Shown here piece by piece: positions 26,517-29,463 of a stretch of 40,523 nucleotides of DNA. Position 1 is the first letter of the stretch. The number at the start of each line of letters is the position of its first letter. The translations under genes were made by a program, and so were the position numbers. The DNA is from an uncultured Prevotellaceae bacterium (GTDB taxonomy: Bacteria; Bacteroidota; Bacteroidia; Bacteroidales; Bacteroidaceae): the NCBI GenBank assembly GCA_946406555.1, contig CAMJLB010000010.1, positions 1 to 40,523 of the forward strand, in the 5' to 3' direction. The notes beneath the pieces were generated by a model, which saw only the letters and a program-made list of their open reading frames with translations, was not told the origin of the DNA and ran no database searches.

Positions 26517-29463
26517 ATGAAGTTTAACCTAAAAACAGGCTTCCTCGCATTGCTGCTCTTAGTCAGCCAGAGCGCTTCTGCCACAGTACTGCCGCAGACT
26601 GTCGACTCGCTTCTGGAAGCCTATAAAATTACCCCCCCCCACAAACCGTAATAGCGCAAAAGAAGTGGTGGCACGCCAGATAGTAGACCTGTGCATGGAA
26701 TGCGAGATGCTGATTGAGACCCCCCTGGAGATACGCAAGGGAATGCCTGCCGACAGCATGAACCTGATGGTCTTTTTTGCCGCCGCGCGCTACTACTATT
26801 ATAATGCCTACTTCGCCGAGTGCCTGGACTATGTGGAACAGGCCCTGCCACTGGCCGCGAACAACGACATGACGCTGCACGCCACCCTGCTGTGCGACCG
26901 CTGCTACTGCCTGTTCAAGCAGGGACGCATGACCGAGGCCATCGAAGCCGGGCAGCAGGCAATGCAGTTCTGCCTGAACCTCGGCCCGTCGGTGTACCTG
27001 GCACGTGCCTACCTCTACCTGGCTATTTGCAACAACTCTCTACCGAATACGGAGCAGGCGAAGCTCTTCATACAGAAGGCCATCGAGGTAGACGCGCAGA
27101 TAGGCACCAACAACAATTCGCACAACATCCTGGGCGTTGCCAGCGAGATATACGCCATAGGGCAGGAACCAGAAAGGGCTATAGTCTATGGTGAGCGAGC
27201 CGTTGAGGCGGCACGCGCCATTGGCTATAAAGAGGGGGTGGTTAACCACCTCTCGCAGCTGAGCTATGCCTACAACCGCAAGGGTGACTACCAGCGTGGA
27301 CTGGAGGTGGCCCGGCGGGCCGTGAGCGAAGTGGAGCTTATGGACGTGCCCGACCGTAACCTGCTGGCCATCAGCTTAGAGTACGTGGCCTATAACCTGC
27401 TCGACTTGAAACGCAACGCCGAGGCGGTGCCCATTCTGCTTAGGGCCATCGGCTTAGAGCAGGAGGTGGGCAACACACGGGCGGTGTGCTACGACTACAG
27501 GTCGCTGGCCGAGGCCTACGAGCCCGACGAGCCACGACAGGCCGTGGCGGCACTGCGCAAATATATTGTGATGGCCGACTCTATTCACAGCAAGCAGATG
27601 AGCGAGGCGCTGGGACAGGCCAACGCCAAGTTCCGCAACAACGAGTTGCAAGACGAGAACACCGAGCGCCGTCGTCAGAACCAGCTCGTCATCATTGCCT
27701 CGGCAACCGTGGCACTGCTGCTGCTGGCGGTCATCGTCTTCATCGTCTATGCCTACCGCTTGCGCGGAAAGGTGAACAGCAGCCTGAAGCAGCAGCAACA
27801 GGCGCAGAATGCCTTCTTCACCAACGTCACCCACGAGTTCCGCACGCCGCTCACCGTGATCCTGGGACTGAGCCGCCAGCTGCAAGAGAAAGAGGATACC
27901 ACTGCCCCCTTAGCCCCCTCTCTCATTGAGCACGAGGCAGACCGCCTGTTGCAGCTCGTGAACCAGCTGCTCGACGTGGCGAAGATGAAGAGCACCGTTG
28001 GAATGCCGCGCTGGCAGCGAGCCAACATTGTGCCGCTGCTGACCATGTTAGCCGAGAGCATGCAGCAGCTGGCCGCCAGCCAGCAGGTGGCGTTGGCCTA
28101 CGAGCCCGATGCCAAAGAGCAGGTGACCGACTTCGTGAGCGACTATGTGCAGAAGATTGCCATCAACCTGCTGTCGAACGCAGTCAAGAACACGCCGTCG
28201 GGCGGCAGCGTCACCCTACGCAGCCGCTGTGGTGACGGGCGCTTCGTGCTCAGCGTGAGCGACACGGGCAACGGCATATCGCCGGAAGACCTGCCCCATA
28301 TCTTCGAACCGTTCTATCAAGGACAGAACGCACAGAAAGCGCAGAGCACCGGCATTGGGCTCACCCTGACAAAACAGCTGGTAGAGGCCATGGGCGGAAC
28401 CATCACCGTGGAGAGCACGATGGGTAAGGGCACCACCTTCACTGTCGACGTGCCACGCATGCAGAAGGGCGTGACGGTGGAAGAGACTGCAACACCCGTG
28501 ATCCCCGAAAACGACCATTTAGGTGATGATGCAGCAATGCCCGTGACGCTTACTGACAGTACCCTTGGCGATGACGACAGCTGTACGCGCGTGCTCATCG
28601 TAGAAGACAACCGTGAGGTGGCCTACTACATTGGCTCGCTGCTCTCGGCACGCTACGATGTGTTCTATGCCGTCGACGGAGAACAGGGCGTGGAAAAGGC
28701 CCGCCAGCTGATGCCCGACATCATCGTTACCGATGTGATGATGCCGCGCGTAGACGGTCTGGAGCTGTGCCGCCGCATCCGGCACGACGAGCTGACTTGC
28801 CATATTCCCGTCATCGTCGTGACGGCTAAGGTTACTGAGAAAGACCGCTTGGAAGGGCTGCATGCAGGAGCCACGGCCTACCTGAACAAGCCCTTCAATG
28901 CCGACGAGCTGTTGACAATGACCGACAACCTCCTGCGGCAACAAAGGGAAATACAAAAAAGAATTATGAGTATAAAAAAAGACGGAACTCTTGTCCCCGC
29001 CCCCAATCCGAATGGCGAGGGAGAGCACAACGGAAACCTGCGTGAAGACGAGCTTGCCTCAGCTATGGTGCATGCGGAGATGCTATGCCCTGAGGCCGGC
29101 GGTGGTGAGATGAACGAGTTGGATCTCCAGTTCCTGGAAAGGCTAAGGGAACAGGTGTTGGCACACATGGATCATAGTGAGACCGACATGGAACACTTGG
29201 CACCGCTGATGGCCATGAGCCAGACGCAGTTGCGCCGGAAAATCTTGGCTGTGACAGGCATCAGCGCAGCAAAATACGTCACCTTGCTGCGTGTTGAGAA
29301 GGCTAAGGAATTACTGAGGCAGTACCCCAAAGTCACCATTATCGAGGTGGCCTACAGCACAGGCTTTGCCGACAATTCCCACTTCACCAAGGTGTTCCAC
29401 CGCATTACGGGCATGACACCGATGCAGTTTATCAAGGACGCCCAAAAGGCCTCGCCGGTCTGA
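26517..29463 (+). CDS. Hybrid two-component regulator: signal peptide, TPR sensor region, TM, HisKA/HATPase, receiver, AraC-type HTH; apparent frameshift at the C9 tract 26632-26640
   Basis: MKFNLKTGFLALLLLVSQSASA from 26517 is in a different frame from the main ORF (26665-29463). The main ORF contains FFTNVTHEFRTPLTVILGLS (H-box), GIGLTLTKQLVEAMGG, RVLIVEDN...DIIVTDVMMP, and IIEVAYSTGFADNSHFTKVFHRITGMTPMQF (AraC HTH). Confidence 0.85.
26632..26640 (+). other. Poly-C homopolymer (9 C) at the frame junction
   Basis: aaaattaccccccccc|acaaaccg. Removing one C (or adding two) joins the signal peptide to the TPR frame. Confidence 0.9.

Follow-up and report, generated by a model that had tools for sequence, protein, structure and literature searches.

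A poly-C tract at a reading-frame junction is a probable phase-variation locus in a hybrid two-component regulator of an uncultured Prevotellaceae bacterium

What is a run of nine cytosines doing at the point where the signal peptide of a regulator and the rest of its coding sequence fall into different reading frames? The question is raised by a hybrid regulator gene in the window, the 40,523-nt stretch analysed here, which is the whole of contig CAMJLB010000010.1 (C10) in the draft genome of an uncultured Prevotellaceae bacterium (GCA_946406555.1; 2.97 Mb, 179 contigs, 84.6% complete) whose nearest relatives are rumen Prevotella genomes. A first-pass annotation had proposed that the frame opened by ATG 26517 halts early, that the kinase frame is open upstream through the poly-C, and that a 9-nt homopolymer lies precisely at the junction of the two. 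All three points hold: translation from ATG 26517 yields the 44-residue peptide MKFNLKTGFLALLLLVSQSASATVLPQTVDSLLEAYKITPPHKP and terminates at the TAA at 26649-26651, the nine cytosines occupy 26632-26640, and the regulator frame is open from 26563 to 29463. The annotation had further argued that one C fewer would join the frames seamlessly, and the residues of a database protein, P0001, match the predicted C8 product exactly. We conclude that the tract is probably a contingency locus, at which translation of this Bacteroidota hybrid regulator is phase-variable.

Homologues, which share both an N-terminal motif and a hydrophobic stretch, show the signal-peptide frame and the kinase frame to be one protein. 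The motif, (D/E)S(L/M)(L/M), occurs within the first 80 residues in 116 of 120 regulator homologues and reads TVDSLL in the window, and a hydrophobic stretch lies within the first 40 residues in 109 of the 120. P0001, a complete protein of 1004 residues with 97% identity over the TPR region and 11 cluster members, contains LLEAYKITPPTNRNSAKEVVARQ, which is what the in-frame C8 form encodes. By its predicted domain content, the regulator is a hybrid two-component system (HTCS), with HisKA, HATPase_c, receiver and AraC domains in one chain and a hydrophobic membrane segment (NQLVIIASATVALLLLAVIVFIVYAYRLRGK, judged by eye) before HisKA. The other hallmark of such systems, a periplasmic sensor at the N-terminus that is exported by a signal peptide, is found in P0001 (the C8 form) and in the homologues only; the C9 reading lacks it. 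As in known contingency loci, the tract is a simple repeat in the 5' coding part of the regulator, where changes in the number of units shift the frame.

The annotation had predicted that tract length varies and had suggested comparing related sequences at this site. Sequences at the level of the same species indeed show C7, C8 and C9 together with two more out-of-frame alleles. The closest metagenome contig (Ga0326512_10015640, hereafter L024) is 98.4% identical to the window over 3.67 kb and carries C7, and the tract is the sole length difference from the regulator ATG to the end of that contig (~1.4 kb). Searching with the 44-residue truncated peptide returned two further predicted proteins from other assemblies. 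One, P0121, terminates ITPPYKP, which implies C8T, in the same frame as C9; no source is listed for it, and it may have been clustered with the window's own peptide, from which its sequence differs. The other, P0122, terminates ITPPTQTVIAQKKWWHAR; it shares the frame of C7 and has two bases more than C8 (the +2 form). There are thus at least five alleles at the site, C7 and C9 seen as DNA and C8, C8T and the +2 form via protein, and together they cover all three reading frames. Strains therefore differ in repeat length, and both in-frame (ON) and out-of-frame (OFF) alleles occur. A C8 fixed in all relatives is ruled out by C7, C9 and the further out-of-frame alleles. Viral contigs were also scanned for the tract, with no match.

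A second species has a tract at the same place. In L025, which is 73% identical to the window, a C8 run lies 115 nt after the ATG, as in the window, and the body is out of frame with the signal peptide, whereas P0007, whose TPR region is near-identical to that of L025, has the in-frame reading KNTPPNSKENVART. Two tract-bearing groups emerge from a tree of this region, both well supported (100/100 and 100/99). A search with the truncated peptide of the second species gave no matches.

These comparisons suggest the following mechanism. Slipped-strand replication would alter the C count directly behind the signal peptide of the TPR-type hybrid regulator. With C8 (ON), one exported, membrane-anchored protein would run from the signal peptide and periplasmic TPR sensor through the membrane segment to the kinase, receiver and AraC domain. 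With C7, C9 and similar lengths (OFF), translation would stop after 44-55 residues, and a signal-less form could start at GTG 26665, leaving its TPR part in the cytoplasm. The switch would probably toggle the signal-dependent regulation of a neighbouring surface-protein operon in a subset of cells, because the regulator combines sensor and transcription factor in a single chain and lies beside a conserved operon of this kind. We infer slippage as the cause, its reversibility within a population, the loss of function in the OFF state, the effect of the ON state and the control of the operon.

Several observations weigh against phase variation. Four of the five distinct alleles are OFF, as is L025, which is also compatible with recurrent loss of the regulator. 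Three of the five (C8, C8T and the +2 form) are deduced from protein records rather than DNA, and the lengths compared come from separate assemblies and protein records. The changes between the window and L024 (two synonymous, four non-synonymous) are too few to reveal recent selection. Finally, the tract is not strictly conserved: its closest tract-less relatives are L021, P0002 and P0003, and these, with P0004, separate the two tract-bearing clades on the TPR-region tree, so the tract was either gained twice or lost several times.

The main competing explanation, which we consider unlikely, is a neutral or loss-of-function polymorphism, in which the C-run is a mutation hotspot, the out-of-frame strains have lost the regulator and switching back is not selected. 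It would account for the majority of distinct alleles being out of frame and for the existence of tract-less relatives. It is also favoured by L021, a goat rumen contig (JAFSYY010000116.1), in which the regulator homologue is broken as well, its kinase part falling out of frame at a G9 (~2655-2670) that lies in a palindrome inserted into the kinase linker; this G9 is open to two readings, a second switch or decay. However, all 932 codons downstream of the tract are intact in the window, and P0001, from the same species, is full-length and in frame. The ratio of non-synonymous to synonymous substitution rates (dN/dS) of the regulator is ~0.2 between species (0.17 against L021 over 442 codons, 0.22 against L025 over ~930 codons), and in the second species a tract occupies the same codon, with relatives both in and out of frame. 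Moreover, the genome otherwise avoids long C/G runs: it contains five of 9 or more, compared to ~15 expected from dinucleotide content. Among its 16 C/G runs of 8 or more, the regulator tract is the only one found to lie clearly where two frames of a long gene meet, and inspection of the remaining long runs for frame junctions found none comparable.

We regard as very improbable a third explanation, recoding during expression, in which ribosomal or transcriptional slippage yields some full-length protein whatever the allele, or re-initiation at GTG 26665 gives a signal-less cytoplasmic form, so that the tract tunes the amount or location of the regulator instead of turning it off. The GTG lies 14 nt past the premature stop in the frame of the regulator body, and in L025 gene callers place the start of the homologue in the other frame (P0006). 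All three frames are seen, however, which is unexpected for recoding at a fixed site, and nearly all homologues have the hydrophobic N-terminal stretch in frame; poly-C slippage of this type is also not known as a common recoding site. Least credible of all is that the real tract is C8 everywhere and the variation an assembly or sequencing error, as might be feared from a fragmented, incomplete draft and from homopolymers that are error-prone on some platforms: several lengths come from separate assemblies (C7 and C9 among them), P0121 and P0122 are out of frame with differing residues, and the valS gene has a C9 run in frame in all three genomes that carry it, the source genome included, although with only three such genomes among 401 this control is small.

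Two other runs in the genome are possible sites of length variation. On contig C32 (6156-6163), a G8 lies in frame in the signal peptide MEKRLMTLLMMLFLLLGGAFSQTKVNGTV of a probable SusC/TonB-type protein and may be a phase-variable tract. On contig C96 (2347-2356), a G10 lies ~26 nt before the start codon (ATG) of a gene for a small secreted protein (probably RlpA-like), where promoter length may vary.

The first-pass annotation had also placed the regulator divergent from a large surface-protein operon, and this is confirmed: the regulator is on the + strand and the operon genes, from 24359-26188 to 6140-19162, are on the - strand (Table 1). Homologues of operon members adjoin regulator homologues in five genomes, divergently in L054 and co-directionally in L022, L057, L061 and L064; homologues of the 4340-residue protein do so in L054, L061 and L064. 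L025 has a different large leucine-rich surface protein divergent from the regulator (repeat type judged by eye). This conserved adjacency supports an action of the regulator on the operon, being in line with it rather than proof. The structure model of the probable outer-membrane protein (19229-20992) is beta-rich but of low confidence (pLDDT 40) and too poor for a fold search.

The regulator leader is unusual. TAnnTTTGC is the Bacteroidota -7 consensus, and a box of this type lies 17-32 nt before the ATG in L021, L022 and L025 but 193 nt before it in the window, because a palindrome intervenes. The 199-nt leader including this inverted repeat has a predicted folding energy of -110.5 kcal/mol, and the palindrome was not seen in the short regulator leaders of L021, L022 and L025. 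This very stable palindrome, downstream of the putative -7 box and ahead of the ATG, may affect expression of the regulator.

Table 1. Features of the regulator locus and the adjoining operon (window positions).
Feature	Position	Strand	Evidence
Putative Bacteroidota -7 box of the regulator, TAnnTTTGC: TATTTTTGC	26324..26332	+	same box in relatives
Near-perfect inverted repeat, 116 nt, 5' untranslated region, predicted hairpin	26377..26492	+	folding; also in L024
Signal-peptide frame (frame 0): ATG, signal peptide MKFNLKTGFLALLLLVSQSASA, first mature residues	26517..26631	+	homologous N-termini in L021, L025 and 100+ proteins
C9 tract, frame junction; C8 is in frame	26632..26640	+	sequence; alleles in L024, P0001, P0121, P0122
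Premature TAA reached by the C9 form	26649..26651	+	sequence
Regulator body, open frame of 966 codons	26563..29463	+	open reading frame (ORF) runs through tract; earliest ATG/GTG/TTG is GTG 26665
TPR region (PF13424)	26881..27093	+	domain match, E=1.6e-11
HisKA (PF00512)	27805..27993	+	domain match, E=4.1e-14
HATPase_c (PF02518)	28144..28458	+	domain match, E=5.8e-29
Receiver domain (PF00072)	28591..28920	+	domain match, E=8.4e-26
AraC-type DNA-binding domain (PF12833)	29200..29436	+	domain match, E=2.1e-20
Divergent group, first gene, with a signal peptide; its C terminus (YDLSGRR...) looks by eye like a sorting tail for type IX secretion	24359..26188	-	homologues beside regulator homologues
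Second gene, same family as the first; secreted	21178..24189	-	homologues beside regulator homologues
Conserved probable outer-membrane beta-barrel protein	19229..20992	-	70% identity between species
4340-residue surface protein, 10 DUF285 (BspA-like leucine-rich) stretches	6140..19162	-	E=4e-128

Two kinds of additional element were observed. Close to the regulator homologue, L022 (8857-9177), L054 (11633-11938), L057 (6659-6967) and L061 (9407-9718) have an additional AraC-type DNA-binding stretch that is apparently absent from the window. GC-rich palindromic repeats are apparently inserted in frame within coding genes: in the window's AMP-binding ORF (29743-31512), in P0001 (residues ~457-490), in L021 (~2620-2760) and on genome contig C62 (400-530). 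In P0001 this is a 34-residue insert in the kinase linker, PSAPEGATI...APSGAVGGA, which is missing from the window regulator; the motif recurs in the AMP-binding ORF and has more than 20 copies in the genome. The first surface protein has an inverted GC-rich repeat, CTCCCTGTAGGGAGGGGAG..., in its coding frame (~24830-24930; ORF 24359-26254), and the genome also contains a LeuRS-like ORF with VGRDSIAA repeats. The apparently inserted palindromic repeats resemble the protein-coding palindromic elements of Rickettsia.

Among known systems, the regulator resembles the HTCS of Bacteroidota in uniting periplasmic sensor, membrane segment, HisKA, HATPase, receiver and AraC domains in one chain that adjoins a likely target operon. 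The sensors of glycan HTCS are usually of the reg_prop/Y_Y_Y type, whereas the window regulator has a TPR sensor, BspA-like surface-protein neighbours instead of a typical sus locus, and the poly-C tract. The closest parallel to the tract is bvgS of Bordetella pertussis, in which C6 gives a full-length hybrid sensor kinase and C7 a truncated one (PMC1891110, PMC7241687). In both cases the poly-C is part of the coding sequence for a hybrid sensor kinase, and in bvgS a single added C truncates the protein and changes the whole regulon. By contrast, BvgS is proteobacterial and works with a separate response regulator, BvgA, whereas the window regulator joins sensor and AraC domain in one chain, has its tract directly behind the signal peptide and belongs to a rumen Prevotella host, with switching proposed from sequence. 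In Bacteroides, the Mpi-controlled capsule loci undergo phase variation via invertible promoters (PMC7241687); they likewise vary the surface of a Bacteroidota cell at random, but by recombinase-driven DNA inversion and not by the tract slippage proposed here. Within an open-access library, limited full-text searching turned up no homopolymer-based phase variation in Bacteroidota.

If the tract is a contingency locus, phase variation of BvgS-like regulators would reach into the Bacteroidota, and the surface of a dominant rumen genus would be diversified by a regulator that switches at random. Which surface proteins are made would then be misjudged from single genomes and from bulk expression data. 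A broader proposal, which we put forward tentatively and hold to be somewhat doubtful, is that a clade of rumen Prevotella has a giant surface-protein operon under a master switch, namely slippage of C/G runs in a one-chain hybrid regulator. Two lineages would have it at one and the same codon, whether it arose there or was kept, and a third would have a second kind of switch, a G9 within a mobile palindrome of the kinase linker. Were this so, a phylum whose known phase variation is mainly recombinase-driven would also have a global switch of the slipped-strand type.
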